This document shows, piece by piece, positions 33,581 through 40,814 of a stretch of DNA of 64,000 bases. How positions within the stretch are numbered: position 1 is the first letter of the stretch; each line of letters starts with the position of its first letter. The position numbers and the translations under genes are program-made. The stretch comes from an uncultured Alistipes sp. (lineage in GTDB: Bacteria; Bacteroidota; Bacteroidia; Bacteroidales; Rikenellaceae). The notes under the pieces were generated by a model. That model was not told the DNA's origin. It saw only the letters and a program-made list of their open reading frames with translations, and searched no databases. Where the stretch lies: positions 1-64,000 of the forward strand of contig CALUMQ010000029.1 of assembly GCA_944321765.1 (NCBI GenBank), in the 5' to 3' direction.

Positions 33581-33618
33581 AAAAACGTCCCGCAGGCAGT
33601 TGTCTGCGGGACGTTTTT
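33581..33618. terminator. bidirectional terminator between M16 and the AhcY fusion
   Basis: A perfect 15-bp inverted repeat (33581-33595 and 33604-33618) carries A5 on one end and T5 on the other, with an 8-nt loop. Confidence 0.9.
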
Positions 33619-33725: not shown

Positions 33726-35567
33726 TCAATAGCGGTAGTGCTCGGCCTTGTAGGGGCCCTCGACCGGCACGCCGATATAGTCGGCCTGCTTCTGCGTGAG
33801 GTGCGTCAGTTCGACACCCAGGTTGTCGAGATGCAACCGTGCCACCTCCTCGTCGAGATGCTTCGGAAGGCGGTAAACGTCGACCTTCAGATCCTTCTGC
33901 CACAGCTCCATCTGTGCCAGGCACTGGTTCGTGAAGGAGTTCGACATGACGAACGAAGGGTGACCCGTTGCACAGCCCAGGTTCACCAGACGTCCCTCGG
34001 CCAGGATGAAGATCGAGTGTCCGTCGGGGAAGGTATATTTGTCGACCTGCGGCTTGATGTTCGTCTTCACGGCATCGGACTTCTCCAGACGTGCCATTTG
34101 GATCTCGTTGTCAAAGTGCCCGATGTTGCAGACGATCGCCTGGTCGCGCATGCGCTCCATGTGCTCCAGCGTGATGATGTCGCAGTTGCCCGTGCAGGTG
34201 ACGTAGATGTTTCCCTCGGCAAGAGCGCTCTCGACGGTCTTCACCTCGAAGCCCTCCATCGCCGCCTGCAACGCACAGATCGGGTCAATCTCCGTAACGA
34301 TCACCCGCGCGCCGTACGAGCGCATCGAGCGTGCGCATCCCTTGCCCACGTCGCCATAGCCGCAAACGACAACCACCTTGCCGGCGATCATGACGTCCGT
34401 CGCACGCTTGATGCCGTCGGCCAGCGACTCACGGCAGCCGTAGAGGTTGTCGAACTTCGACTTCGTGCAGGAGTCGTTGACGTTGATCGCCGGGACGAGC
34501 AGCTCGCCGGCAGCCTGCATCTGATAAAGACGGTGTACGCCCGTCGTGGTCTCTTCGCTCACGCCCTTCCACTCGGCCACCGTGCGGTGCCACTTCTGCG
34601 GATCCTCGGCCAGAATCTGTTTCAGCGTCGAGAGGATCACCTCCTCCTCGTAGGACGAGGGGGCATAGTCAAGCGTCGTGGCATCGTTCTCGGCCTTGTA
34701 GCCCTTGTGGATCAGCAGGGTCGCATCGCCGCCGTCGTCGACGATCAGCTGCGGGCCCTTGCCTCCGGGGAAGGACATCGCCATCGCCGTGCACCACCAG
34801 TACTCGGGCAGCGTCTCACCCTTCCAGGCAAAGACCGGAACACCCGCCTTGGCAATGGCTGCCGCTGCATGATCCTGCGTCGAGAAGATGTTGCACGAGC
34901 ACCAGCGCACATCGGCACCCAGTTCGACAAGCGTTTCGATCAGCACGGCCGTCTGGATCGTCATGTGCAGCGAGCCCATGATGCGGACGCCCTTCAGCGG
35001 TTTTTGGGGTCCGTATTTGCGGCGCACGGCCATCAGACCCGGCATTTCATGTTCGGAGATCTCGATCTCCTTGCGGCCCCACTCGGCCAGCGACAGGTCG
35101 GCCACTTTGTAGGGAAGCGTGTTGTCAATAAACATATCTTGCGTATTTTGAGGATTTATCGTCATCGAATGTGAATGAGGTTGCAGTGCGGAATCCGCAC
35201 GGGTCTCCAGTTCAAGAACGCGCATCTTGTCGCGTACGATCTGTTCGCGCAGCGCTTCGGTTGTGGCAAAGGTCCGCTCCCCGCGGATCCGCTCGAGCAG
35301 CGTCACGCGCAGCCGGCGGCCGTACAACGATCCCTCGAAGTCGAACACATGCGTCTCCAGCCGTCGGGAAACCCCTCCGACCGAAGGATTCCGGCCCAGG
35401 TTCGACATCGCGGCATAGCAGCGTCCGTCGATCTCGACATGCGAACGGTAGACTCCGTCGGGAGCCGCCAGGTCGTCGGAGACGGGAAGATTGGCCGTCG
35501 GGAATCCCAATTCGCGCCCCAGGCGGCGTCCGTGCTCCACCACTCCCTCAATCACCACATGCTCCAT
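33726..35567 (-). CDS. ahcY: riboflavin kinase-S-adenosylhomocysteine hydrolase fusion
   Basis: A single 613-residue frame. Residues 1-128 form a complete riboflavin kinase domain: [20 protein letters not shown], and ETHVFDF with the catalytic Glu71, followed by LYGRRLRV. The FAD-synthetase half of RibF is absent. From Met135/Met145 onward it is a complete AhcY, splitting S-adenosylhomocysteine into adenosine and homocysteine: [12 protein letters not shown], the NAD loop GYGDVGKG, and the C-terminal YKAEHYRY. No stop separates the parts. The linker is AT-rich and has ATGs at 35165 and 35135, so AhcY could also start there (469 residues from 35135). AhcY is certain; translation as a fusion is inference. 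Confidence 0.85.
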
Positions 35568-35570
35568 CGA

Positions 35571-36677
35571 TCAGATTTTTTCGGTCAGCTTGCGCACCAG
35601 GCTGAACTGTGAGAAGAACTCCTTGGCAAAGACCCGGAGCACCGTATAGGAGGGAATAGCCAGCAGCATGCCCAGAATGCCGGCCAGCGACCCGGCGATC
35701 AGAATCACCAGAAAAACCTCCAGCGGATGGGCCTTCACCCGTTCGGAATAGAGCGTAGGCTGCAGGACAAAGTCATCCATACCCTTGATTATCAACAGAG
35801 AGCCGGCAATAACAAAGACCGTATGCCCCACCGTCATGCCTTCGATCGGGGCGATGATGCCCACGAAAGCCGAAACGATACCCCCGATCAGCGGCCCGGC
35901 ATACGGCACAACGTTCATCACACCCATCGTCAAGCCGATAAACGCGGCATTGGAGGTCTGCATACCGAAGGCGATCATCACCAGCATCACGGTGATCATC
36001 AACAACAGGCTCTCGGTGAGAATTCCCGTGAAGTAGCGCGACAGCAGATGGGTCACCGAATCGAGCGCCCGGGTGATGTTGTCGTGGTACCGCTCCGGGA
36101 ATACCGCCGTCACCATGGCGTAGAAGAGTCCGTCATCCTTGAGGAAGAAGAACGTAATGAACGAGATGGAGAAGATGGCGATGGCCGAGGAGATGATTAC
36201 GTTGACAATCGACGAGAAAACGGCGTTAATCGAGTCGAAATCGATGATCTGGCGCAGCGTCGAGGCCAGCGCATCGGACAGTGAGAAGGTGCTCTCGGGC
36301 TGTGCAAAGAGCGTCTGCAGGTAGTGTTGAGCCTCGGACAGGGGCTCCTCGATCGATGCGAGCACCGACGTGAAATCGACATTCGAAAGTTGGTAGATCT
36401 TGTCGAAAACCAGCGGGATGAACAACGAGAAGAGGGTTGCGGCAACCACCCAGATGACAATCAGCGTGATCAACGCCCCAAGCCATCGCGGAACCTGCCA
36501 CGTACGGATACGCAGCCGACACAGCAACTGCACCAAAGGTCGTCCCATGACGGCCAGTACCGCCGAAACGAGGATGTAGACGACGATCGACGAAAAGTAC
36601 CACACCAGAAAGAGAATGGCCGCGGCAACTGCCGCGCCCACAAGAAATTTCAGAACGGTCTGGGGGGTCGTTTTCAT
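35571..36677 (-). CDS. AI-2E family (PerM/UPF0118) membrane transporter
   Basis: This 368-residue protein has about seven to eight membrane segments and the family blocks FFLKDDGLFY, NVVPYAGPLIGGI and HPLEVFLVILIAGSLAGILGM. Family members export small molecules or ions; the name from AI-2 transport (TqsA) is not proof of substrate. The ATG at 36677 is used because the in-frame upstream codon is TTG. It sits 11 bp after psd and 3 bp before the riboflavin kinase-AhcY gene. Confidence 0.9.
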   Translation of the reverse strand: MKTTPQTVLKFLVGAAVAAAILFLVWYFSSIVVYILVSAVLAVMGRPLVQLLCRLRIRTWQVPRWLGALITLIVIWVVAATLFSLFIPLVFDKIYQLSNVDFTSVLASIEEPLSEAQHYLQTLFAQPESTFSLSDALASTLRQIIDFDSINAVFSSIVNVIISSAIAIFSISFITFFFLKDDGLFYAMVTAVFPERYHDNITRALDSVTHLLSRYFTGILTESLLLMITVMLVMIAFGMQTSNAAFIGLTMGVMNVVPYAGPLIGGIVSAFVGIIAPIEGMTVGHTVFVIAGSLLIIKGMDDFVLQPTLYSERVKAHPLEVFLVILIAGSLAGILGMLLAIPSYTVLRVFAKEFFSQFSLVRKLTEKI

Positions 36678-36688
36678 GGTTTGACAAA

Positions 36689-37384
36689 TCAATGAGCATC
36701 AAATACCGCCTCGGGAACCTTGCGCAACCGCGCAATCGGGGTCTGCGACCCCACGGTGGGATCTCCGATCTCGACAAGCAGTTCGCTGTCCTTGGGAACC
36801 AGTACGTCGACGCGCGATCCGAACTTGATGAATCCGCAGACGCTGTTCTGCTCCACGGCATGCCCCACCTTCATATAGGAGATGATGCGCCGCGCGATAA
36901 AACCTGCCACCTGACGGAACAGCACCCGCTGTCCCGACGGCATCCGCACGACTGTCGTCGTACGTTCGTTCTCCGTCGACGACTTGGGATGCCACGCCAC
37001 CAGAAAGCGGCCCGGATGGTATTTGAAATATTCCACCTCGCCGCCCACGGGAACCCAGTTCATGTGAACGTTGGTGATCGACATGAAGATCGAGATCTGC
37101 AGCATCTCCTCCTGGAGGTACTCGGACTCCGAAACAACCTCCGTCACGACCACACGTCCGTCGCACGGAGCAAAGACCAGGTCGGCATCGTGGATCCGCA
37201 CCCGGCGGGGTTCGCGGAAGAACGCCACGATGAAGAACCAGAACAGCAGCAGGAAGAGGGCCGAAACCCACAACAGCGTCACATTCGCATCGTGAACCAG
37301 CAGGTGGCGGAACAGCCACCAGATAAGCACGCACACAATGCCCGATATGAAGATGATCCTGTATCCCTCCTTATTTATTCTCAT
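36689..37384 (-). CDS. psd: phosphatidylserine decarboxylase proenzyme
   Basis: The 231-residue membrane enzyme makes phosphatidylethanolamine. Two N-terminal membrane segments (about residues 9-27 and 35-55) precede the catalytic domain with FAPCDGRVV and MSITNVHMNWVP. Self-cleavage is expected at Gly189-Ser190 in IKFGSRVDV, giving the pyruvoyl group. The length fits the short prokaryotic type. It is 24 bp downstream of cdsA, in the same lipid pathway. Confidence 0.95.
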   Translation of the reverse strand: MRINKEGYRIIFISGIVCVLIWWLFRHLLVHDANVTLLWVSALFLLLFWFFIVAFFREPRRVRIHDADLVFAPCDGRVVVTEVVSESEYLQEEMLQISIFMSITNVHMNWVPVGGEVEYFKYHPGRFLVAWHPKSSTENERTTTVVRMPSGQRVLFRQVAGFIARRIISYMKVGHAVEQNSVCGFIKFGSRVDVLVPKDSELLVEIGDPTVGSQTPIARLRKVPEAVFDAH

Positions 37385-37408: not shown

Positions 37409-38257
37409 TCACATTACGTATAACATGTAAACGAAGACGAACGGTGCCGACAGCAGCATGGCGTCGAAACGATCGAGCACGCCTCCGTGGCCGGGGATCA
37501 GCGATCCCGAGTCCTTGACGCCTGCCGAGCGTTTGAACATCGACTCTGCCAGATCACCCAGCACGCCCGTGGCGGCAGCGACAAGCGCCAGCACGCCCCA
37601 GGTCAGATAGCTTTCATCGAGGAGCCATGCAGCGACAAGCCCCATGATAACGGCTCCGACGAGCCCTCCGAAGAAGCCCTCCCACGACTTCTTGGGCGAA
37701 AGGCGCTCGAACAGCCGATGACGCCCCACCGTCATGCCCACCAGGTAGGCAAAGACGTCGTTGGCCCAGATGATGAAGACATAGAAGAGCATCGGAGCGG
37801 GATCCCAGGTGTCGCTGCCCAGAATCGGAATATAGCACATCAGCGAAAGGGGCATTGCCACGTAGATCACCCCCAGAAGCGTCGTGCCGATATTGGCTGC
37901 GGGGCGCTCCTCGCCGCGATAGAGTTCGCAGACGATCATCGTCGGAAGCAGCAACAGCAGCAGAGCCAGGCCAAAGCCGAACACCCGGCTGCCGCTTCCC
38001 AGAATCTCGATGTCATCCGACACGAACGAGAAGTTCAGTGCCAGCAGCAACAGGCCGGTCACCAGACCGATGATGCGCTGCGGACGGGAGCCCTGCGCCT
38101 CGGCCAGGGCATAAAATTCCCACATGCCCACCACCAACAGGAGCGCAAGCAGGATGCCGAAGCTCCACTGGCACCATGCAATGGCACCCAGGACCACCAC
38201 GGCAAGAACAATTCCGCTCACCGTCCGGACCATCAGATTCTTCAGTTTTTCATTCAT
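37409..38257 (-). CDS. cdsA: phosphatidate cytidylyltransferase
   Basis: The 282-residue integral membrane enzyme makes CDP-diacylglycerol. It has about eight membrane segments and the C-terminal signature SMFKRSAGVKDSGSLIPGHG followed by GVLDRFDA. It lies between ftsH (40 bp upstream) and psd. Confidence 0.96.
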   Translation of the reverse strand: MNEKLKNLMVRTVSGIVLAVVVLGAIAWCQWSFGILLALLLVVGMWEFYALAEAQGSRPQRIIGLVTGLLLLALNFSFVSDDIEILGSGSRVFGFGLALLLLLLPTMIVCELYRGEERPAANIGTTLLGVIYVAMPLSLMCYIPILGSDTWDPAPMLFYVFIIWANDVFAYLVGMTVGRHRLFERLSPKKSWEGFFGGLVGAVIMGLVAAWLLDESYLTWGVLALVAAATGVLGDLAESMFKRSAGVKDSGSLIPGHGGVLDRFDAMLLSAPFVFVYMLYVM

Positions 38258-38297: not shown

Positions 38298-40451
38298 CTA
38301 CTTCTGTACGTTCTGTTCGCCGGAAGCCGAGGATGTTTTCGAGTCCGCAGCCGGTGACTTCGGATCCGCTGCAGCTGCCCCGGATGCGGATGCAGCCGAT
38401 GCAACGGTGGAAGAGGCGGCAGCAGACGGTGCACTCTTTTCCGAAACCGCAGTTGCCGGAGTGGAGGGATCCGAAGCCGCGGAGCTTTTGGCACTCTCGG
38501 ATGCCTTGGCCTCCGCTTCACGCCGCTCGCGCTCGATATCCTTCTTGCGCTTGCCGAAGATACGCTCCACGTCCTCCGTGAAGACCACCTCGCGCTGCAG
38601 CAGCAGCTCAGCCAGCTCCTTCAGTCCGGCAGCGTGTTCGCGAAGCACCTGTTCGGCCATACGATAGGCCTCGTCGATCACCCGTCGCGCCTCGGCATCA
38701 ATCGCCTGCGCCGTCTGCTCCGAATAGGGTTTCGTGAGGGCCATGTCGCTCTGACCCGTCGAGTCGTAGTACGACAGCGTTCCGACCTTCTGGCTCATGC
38801 CGTAGTAGGCCACCATGGCGTAGGCCTGCTTCGTCACGCGCTCCAGGTCGTTCAACGCTCCCGTCGAGACATGTCCGAAAGTCAACTGCTCCGAAACCCG
38901 GCCGCCGAGCGTCGCGGCAAGTTCGTCCATCATCTGCTCCTGCGTGGTGATCTGCCGCTCCTCGGGAAGGTACCACGCGGCACCCAGCGCCTTGCCGCGC
39001 GGGATGATCGTCACCTTGATCAGCGGGCTGGCATTTTCGAGAATCCAGCTCACGGTGGCATGTCCCGCCTCATGGTAGGCGATCACGCGTTTCTCGTCAT
39101 CGGTAATGATCTTGTTCTTACGCTCCAGACCGCCCACAATGCGGTCGATGGCAGCCAGAAAATCCTCCTTGGAGATGAATTTCTTGTTGTGACGCGCCGC
39201 GATCAACGCCGCTTCGTTGCAAACATTGGCGATATCGGCTCCCGAGAAACCCGGCGTCTGACGCGCCAGGAACGAGCGGTCCAGCTCCGGATCGAGCTTC
39301 AGCGGCCGCAGGTGCACCTCGAAGATCTCCTCGCGCTCCTTGACGTCGGGAAGCCCCACCTCAATCTGACGGTCGAAGCGTCCGGCGCGCATCAGCGCCT
39401 TGTCGAGGATGTCGGCACGGTTCGTGGCCGCCAGGACAATGACGCCCGTATTGGTCTGGAAGCCGTCCATCTCCGTGAGGAGCTGGTTCAGCGTATTTTC
39501 GCGTTCGTCGTTCCCCGAGAAGCCGGCATTCTTACCGCGTGCACGGCCGATGGCGTCGATCTCGTCGATGAAGACGATGCACGGAGCCTTCTGCTTGGCC
39601 TGCTCAAAGAGGTCACGCACACGCGAAGCACCCACGCCCACGAACATCTCGACGAAGTCCGAACCCGAAATCGAGAGGAACGGAACGTTCGCCTCGCCCG
39701 CTACGGCCTTGGCCAGCAGCGTCTTGCCCGTTCCCGGAGGGCCGACCAGCAGCGCACCCTTCGGAATCTTGGCGCCGAGTTCCTTGTATTTGTCGGCCTT
39801 CTTGAGGAAGTCGACGATCTCCATGATCTCGACCTTGGCCTCCTCAAGTCCCGCGACATCCTTGAAGGTCACCCGCTTGGAGTTGTCCTTGTCGAAGACC
39901 TGCGCCTTCGCCTTGCCGACGTTCATGATGCCTCCGCCGCCCCCGGCACCGGCGCCGCGCGACATCGACCGCATGATGAAGAACCACGCTCCGATGATGA
40001 TGATCCACGGCAGCAGATTGATCAGCAGCGTCGTCCAGTCGTTGCGCTCCTCCTCGGCGTATTTCACCGGAACGTCGTGTCCCGAGACTGCGGCCGCGGC
40101 ATTCAGTTCGGCGACGAACGGCTCGATGGGGCCCGTAATCAGGAAGAGCTGCGGCCCCTGATTCGGCATGCGCAGGAACTGTTTGTTGGAAGAATCGTTG
40201 CGGTACTTCTCCACCGCCTCCTTGTGCAGGTAGATCAGCGCCTTCGACTCGCCCACGATCTGGATCCGCTCCACGTCGCCCTGCTCGACCATCGGCTTGA
40301 CGGCCGTCCAGTCGCTCTCGACCGGTTTGTCGTTCGACGGCGTGAAAGCCCAGTAAGCGATGATGAAGACCGCGATCAGGCCGTAAATCCACAGTCCCGA
40401 GAACCGCGGCATATTCATTTTGGGGTTGATATTCTTGCGTTTTTGTGTCAT
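38298..40451 (-). CDS. ftsH: ATP-dependent zinc metalloprotease FtsH
   Basis: The 717-residue membrane protease has two membrane segments (about residues 20-36 and 143-160) flanking a periplasmic domain. Walker A GPPGTGKT is at 237-244, the second region of homology contains [18 protein letters not shown], and the zinc motif HEAGH is at 460-464. Residues 650-717 form an Ala/Ser/Pro-rich tail absent from E. coli FtsH. It follows rsfS by 9 bp in the rsfS-ftsH-cdsA-psd cluster. Confidence 0.97.
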
Positions 40452-40460
40452 AATCCGTTG

Positions 40461-40814
40461 CTACTCTTCGTATTCATACTTCACCATGGGGGCGTCGGCC
40501 CAGAGCTCCTCCAGGCGGTAGAAGTCCCGCATCTCCGTCTGGAAAATGTGCACCACCACATCGACATAGTCCATGGCGATCCACACGGCGTTCTGCTGCC
40601 CCTCCACACGCCAGACCTTCTCGCCCAGCGTCTCCAGGACCTTCTCCTCGATGCCGTCGGCAATGGCCGCCACCTGCGTCGTGGAGTCGGCGTTGCACAC
40701 CACGAACGTCGAACAGATGGCCCCGTCGAAGCCCGAAAGGTCCAACGTTACGATATTCTTTCCCTTTTTATCTTCAATCGCACTGACGATCGTTTCGATC
40801 AGTTTGTCTGCCAT
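40461..40814 (-). CDS. rsfS: ribosome silencing factor RsfS
   Basis: This 117-residue protein binds ribosomal protein uL14 and blocks subunit joining under starvation. The conserved blocks are DLSGFDGAICSTFVVCNADS and WIAMDYVDVVVHIFQTEMRDFYRLEELWADA. It is the first gene of a six-gene minus-strand cluster with a -7 box 25 nt upstream. Confidence 0.95.
   Translation of the reverse strand: MADKLIETIVSAIEDKKGKNIVTLDLSGFDGAICSTFVVCNADSTTQVAAIADGIEEKVLETLGEKVWRVEGQQNAVWIAMDYVDVVVHIFQTEMRDFYRLEELWADAPMVKYEYEE

Follow-up and report, generated by a model that had tools for sequence, protein, structure and literature searches.

Does an uncultured Alistipes sp. make riboflavin kinase (RFK) and S-adenosylhomocysteine (SAH) hydrolase (AhcY) as one joined protein, as products of nested genes, or as both? 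The question is raised by the minus strand of the window, i.e. the whole 64,000 nt stretch analysed here (contig CALUMQ010000029.1), in which the initial annotation had described a complete RFK running without a stop into a full-length AhcY. Positions 33726-35567 indeed form an uninterrupted frame of 613 aa from ATG, with no internal stop codon. Flavokinase (PF01687) spans residues 3-117 (Pfam, E 1.7e-35; 122.4 bits vs. the curated cut-off of 19.6) and AdoHcyase residues 153-612 (Pfam, E 1.5e-149). The AhcY part scores above the cut-off of the ahcY equivalog TIGR00936 (633.9 vs. 497.6 bits) and ends with an intact C-terminal HYRY tail; it is a full-length member of the bacterial AhcY proteins, from which it differs in that the open frame adds RFK at the N terminus. 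The linker at 35125-35170 and the ATGs at 35165 and 35135 are likewise as initially described. The locus comprises the following features:

33726-35567, minus strand: RFK-AhcY in-frame ORF, 613 aa (open frame and Pfam)
35217-35561, minus strand: riboflavin kinase domain (Flavokinase), the sole RFK match of the assembly (Pfam)
35136-35210, minus strand: linker, residues ~120-144, with a stop and another frame in G007 and G010 (alignment)
35136-35155, minus strand: A-rich, weakly structured leader 5' of the internal start (A 0.45, higher than at 99.8% of the control Met codons)
35133-35135, minus strand: internal ATG (Met145), the ahcY start site of separate genes, kept in 11/11 fused genomes
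35163-35165, minus strand: upstream in-frame ATG (Met135) in ordinary context, a less likely start (A at 67th percentile)
33726-35135, minus strand: AhcY coding region, 469 aa, with HYRY end
35571-36692, minus strand: AI-2E/PerM family transporter, whose stop ends 3 nt 5' of the RFK ATG (Pfam)
36689-37384, minus strand: phosphatidylserine decarboxylase (psd), in an operon-like run with perM and rfk (Pfam)
37409-38257, minus strand: cytidylyltransferase, CdsA-like (Pfam)
38298-40451, minus strand: FtsH-like ORF (named by eye from sequence)
40461-40814, minus strand: RsfS-like ORF (named by eye from sequence)
33581-33618, no strand assigned: inverted repeat with a T-run, resembling a terminator by eye, located between ahcY and the convergent gene

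A pattern scan reported no terminator, and Rfam returned nothing at gathering scores on the window, with no known riboswitch found.

The RFK part carries the motif GFPTAN. When 10 of the 11 fused proteins found in the genus were aligned (truncated G041 was left out), G21-T24, N26 and E71, the catalytic Glu noted initially, were invariant, and A25 was replaced by Leu in G035 (motif PTLN). The window's RFK domain is homologous to the C-terminal half of bifunctional RibF; it differs from RibF in that the FAD-synthetase half is missing from the frame, as had been claimed. No PF06574 match was obtained in the 613-aa frame, TIGR00083 (bifunctional RibF) reached 90 bits and stayed below its cut-off of 184, and the lone FAD_syn match of the assembly is a stand-alone 203-aa frame on a different contig. 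The assembly, an 88.6% complete draft of 40 contigs, contains a single RFK and a single AhcY match; at this completeness an assembly gap may hide a second copy of either. One RFK and one AhcY match apiece were also found in the fused genomes G011, G135 and G177, which are listed as 99% complete. A pseudogene reading of the RFK part was rejected, because the motifs are intact and the assembly has no other RFK match. An AlphaFold2 model of the fusion, based on the 10 aligned fused proteins, had a mean pLDDT of 47, too low for judging whether the domains are compatible.

The initial annotation had suggested looking for a second, bifunctional ribF in the same genome. None was matched, and the reason lies in the genus. 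RFK was detected in 173/180 Alistipes genomes with a single match each and FAD_syn in 56 of the 61 genomes sampled, the best FAD_syn matches lying in frames of 190-298 aa in 54 of these 56 (exceptions: G161, 553 aa; G141, 404 aa). RFK was matched in 142 of the 149 genomes sampled from the order, and among the matches listed most frames had the ~300-340 aa expected of bifunctional RibF. The stand-alone FAD_syn frames of Alistipes, as opposed to the RibF-sized frames of the order, indicate that RibF is split in Alistipes. The available part of an earlier paper already notes such a split for A. putredinis, with a monofunctional RFK and a type II FADS (PMC2972280), i.e. the same split in the genus of the window; an AhcY fusion is not mentioned in that part of the text. 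The same part names a plant FMN hydrolase/RFK fusion (PMC2972280), in which RFK likewise shares a protein with another enzyme. In the plant protein this partner acts on flavins, whereas in the window it belongs to the methyl cycle. No literature on an RFK-AhcY fusion or on the rfk-ahcY neighbourhood was found in a search that left most subscription journals outside. Separately, a single 686-aa frame of G235 from another family (L206:1114-3174, minus strand) combines FAD_syn and RFK with glycerate kinase.

How often the two genes are joined was determined from the loci of 156 of the 173 RFK-bearing Alistipes genomes, the remaining 17 being without AhcY match. AhcY is present in 64/180 Alistipes genomes, and in the fetched stretches rfk lies upstream of ahcY in 62 of these 64; G163 has no RFK match and in G170 ahcY is ~40 kb away. 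An in-frame fusion without a stop was found for 11 of the 62 pairs (G000, the window; G011, G035, G041, G061, G063, G065, G135, G164, G175 and G177), with contig ends cutting AhcY 3' of the joint in G041 and G175. Separate genes are 2 to 1464 nt apart; 14 of the 51 separate pairs are in frame, eight of them with just one stop between the genes. When neighbour pairs within 700 nt were compared in the 156 loci, fusion was seen for rfk-ahcY (11/60) and rfk-luxS (1/9), and never for psd-perM (0/140), perM-rfk (0/144), rfk-nucleosidase (0/21, some with luxS between) or luxS-nucleosidase (0/17). These counts ignore the kinship of the genomes, and the membrane-protein partners among the pairs may bear fusion less well. 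No second strain of the window's species was among the 10 loci (2 of them Alistipes) returned by a contig scan. In G177 (L163:1632-3518, plus strand) the fused AhcY extends 20 residues beyond the conserved HYRY end. At G270:C5:249512-250786, the AhcY match is broken into three pieces and interrupted by several in-frame stops; the gene has apparently decayed.

Outside Alistipes, rfk is followed by ahcY in 8/20 loci of the sister genus, with separate genes in all of them. A 638-aa RFK frame of G292 in that genus, considered as a candidate fusion, turned out to be open upstream and to stop before ahcY. In other families of the order, where positions were compared by eye, ribF is followed by ahcY on one strand and within 300 nt in at least 18 of 147 sampled genomes; with 470-505 aa, the AhcY frames of these genomes lack the length of a fusion.

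An AhcY DNA tree of the 62 rfk-ahcY pairs, with 200 bootstrap trees, was used to follow the fused state. Eight changes were counted (5-95% bootstrap range 8-8), of which the starred branches force at least 7, although gain and loss are not distinguishable from the count alone; a topology holding all fused rows together as one clade was rejected (p-AU 1.7e-5). The weak rows of the tree are G041 and G010 (under half filled), G023 (long) and six of unusual composition. The joints themselves differ: G007 has TAA aligned to TCA of the window, with frames differing by indels, G035 reads GAG at the position of the TAG in its sister G106, and linkers vary in length and sequence between the fusion events. 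These differing joints speak for separate gains of the fusion. The sole shared fusion is that of the four-species clade G041/G061/G063/G065; it is the older, established one, the fused ORF having been kept in more than one species. A conserved stop in close relatives had been named initially as evidence against the fusion. Such a stop was found between the separate genes of the window's nearest relatives in the tree, G007 and G010, but the ~8 changes and the persistent four-species clade stand on the other side. The rfk-ahcY neighbourhood seems to predate the genus; the fusions are younger and recurrent.

We also analysed the region around the putative internal start of ahcY. Nearly all separate ahcY genes start with the ATG opening M[FY][LI]D, and this ATG (35135 in the window) is retained in 11/11 fused ORFs. 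The fraction of A at positions -20 to -1 is 0.49 in the 11 fused ORFs and 0.53 at the 51 separate ahcY starts vs. 0.20 at 943 in-frame Met codons; the folding energy at the start is -1.85, -2.48 and -12.2 kcal/mol for fused ORFs, separate genes and other Met codons, respectively. In the window, A amounts to 0.45 before 35135 and 0.25 before 35165, and G+C of the preceding 20 nt is 0.35 and 0.45, respectively. Initiation in Bacteroidetes proceeds without Shine-Dalgarno and is aided where adenines precede the start codon and the RNA is little structured (PMC6847099). Within the four-species clade, synonymous variation affects 2 of 18 degenerate codons between -16 and +5 relative to the internal ATG, borders that were chosen after the conservation had been seen by eye. 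This is a dip compared with the rest of RFK (45/84, p 0.0013), and is not significant compared with the rest of AhcY (27/88, p 0.14); neither figure includes codons 6-15 after the ATG, where 5 of 10 degenerate codons vary. For the single-species fusions the start region may be plain inheritance. Altogether, the retained ATG with its A-rich, weakly structured leader makes it probable that translation from the internal start yields free AhcY. As rfk has no stop, RFK would be available only as the joined product, unless this is cut or translation ends early. Among the options considered initially (fusion, nested gene or both), the last fits the evidence best, with 35135 as the candidate start and 35165, in its ordinary context, disfavoured.

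The loci without AhcY were then inspected for the other SAH route. LuxS occurs in 89 and AhcY in 64 of the 180 Alistipes genomes, both in none and neither in 27. Out of 93 Alistipes loci without AhcY match, a PNP_UDP_1 nucleosidase and/or luxS lies beside rfk in 31; the fetched stretch contains neither of them in 54 loci and was too short in eight. The nucleosidase does not reach the NCBIfam cut-offs for MTA/SAH nucleosidase, so that its name rests on context. In 21 of the 31 loci the genes are in line within 89 nt or fused (nine with luxS then nucleosidase, 12 with nucleosidase first), in one luxS is in line at 1.1 kb from rfk, and in nine the nucleosidase/luxS genes are on the opposite strand and hence not co-transcribed with rfk. 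The fused case is G066 (L083:1800-2645, minus strand), where a single 281-aa RFK-LuxS frame lies between perM and the nucleosidase gene (Flavokinase 2.4e-36, LuxS 7.9e-36) and a Met is kept at the beginning of LuxS. On a quick PerM+RFK tree (144 rows, sister genus left out, long branches flagged) the ahcY label changes twice and the nucleosidase/luxS label three times, which points to few exchanges of the SAH enzyme. As a further observation, a 424-aa frame of G168 (L168:3195-4469, minus strand) joins RFK to a GFO_IDH_MocA oxidoreductase, and a 479-aa ORF without Pfam match lies between this frame and ahcY.

From these data we infer an order of evolutionary steps, two products, a mixing of tetramers and a possible benefit. 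The ribF-then-ahcY neighbourhood, present in several families of the order, would have been kept when RibF split in Rikenellaceae, leaving a stand-alone rfk just 5' of ahcY, often a few bases apart. The rfk stop would then have been lost in frame in several Alistipes lineages, including that of the window. Initiation at the rfk ATG would yield one RFK-AhcY protein of 613 aa (~68 kDa by estimate), with RFK obtainable solely in joined form, barring cleavage or early end of translation; initiation at the retained ahcY ATG (35135) would yield a free AhcY of 469 aa. In other bacteria AhcY forms tetramers, and mixed AhcY tetramers bearing some RFK domains are likely. Homocysteine remethylation depends on FAD- and FMN-dependent proteins; a benefit could lie in a supply of flavin cofactors next to homocysteine regeneration. 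A functional link between flavins and the methyl cycle is plausible, and the 31 of 93 AhcY-lacking loci with nucleosidase/luxS by rfk give it some support, vs. the 54 with neither. As judged from sequence, we consider it rather likely that RFK is present only as the RFK-AhcY fusion and that free AhcY is made additionally from the internal start.

A fusion as the only product, with the internal start region as a relic of the old gene boundary, would fit the open frame, the unfused state of the window's nearest relatives, given which the leader was possibly just inherited, and the synonymous dip that loses significance when set against the rest of AhcY. Such a reading is unlikely, as the ATG and its A-rich, weakly structured leader are kept in all 11 fused ORFs and there is little synonymous variation there compared with RFK in the four-species clade. 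We regard an assembly or base error behind the window's read-through, a cause that the initial annotation had allowed for, as very improbable: the genome is a draft of 40 contigs, its nearest relatives have stops and its joint differs by indels, but ~8 separate cases, including genomes listed as 99% complete and the four-species clade, and the lack of psd-perM (0/140) and perM-rfk (0/144) fusions in the same loci speak against it. Errors could explain one genome and fail to explain the genus-wide pattern.

Joint and free products as favoured above can have arisen with or without selection for coupling. In one scenario the rfk slot is a flavin/SAH-recycling module, in which the SAH enzyme in use (AhcY or nucleosidase plus LuxS) is placed directly after rfk in many lineages; selection for physical or stoichiometric coupling would have led to repeated fusions with two non-homologous partners (AhcY ~8 times, LuxS once), and the internal start would keep free AhcY in excess. 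We put this forward tentatively, as possible but somewhat doubtful. Neutral fusion is a strong rival, to which we give a little under an even chance, and it is compatible with both products: with a variable C-terminal tail of rfk and a tight gene pair, loss of the stop would be tolerated as AhcY keeps its own start, and functional coupling would play no part. The differences in linker length and sequence between events fit this explanation, as do the eight of 51 separate pairs that are one stop codon short of fusion, the joining of RFK also to GFO_IDH_MocA (G168) and glycerate kinase (G235), and the 54 of 93 AhcY-lacking loci with neither nucleosidase nor luxS near rfk. Against it may be set the choice of partners in Alistipes fusions (AhcY with eight changes, LuxS and GFO_IDH_MocA with one each) and the enzymes of the other SAH route by rfk in 31 of the 93 AhcY-lacking loci, although both observations are compatible with neutral fusion.

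For annotation, the start sites of AhcY are ambiguous in fused Alistipes genomes, and RibF is to be treated as split in this genus. The same neighbour pair has merged ~8 times within one genus, with unfused sisters as controls, which makes cause and consequence of the fusion testable. The findings hint that FMN supply may be tied to the recycling of S-adenosylhomocysteine in Alistipes, with a neighbourhood that partly outlives the swap to a non-homologous SAH enzyme.
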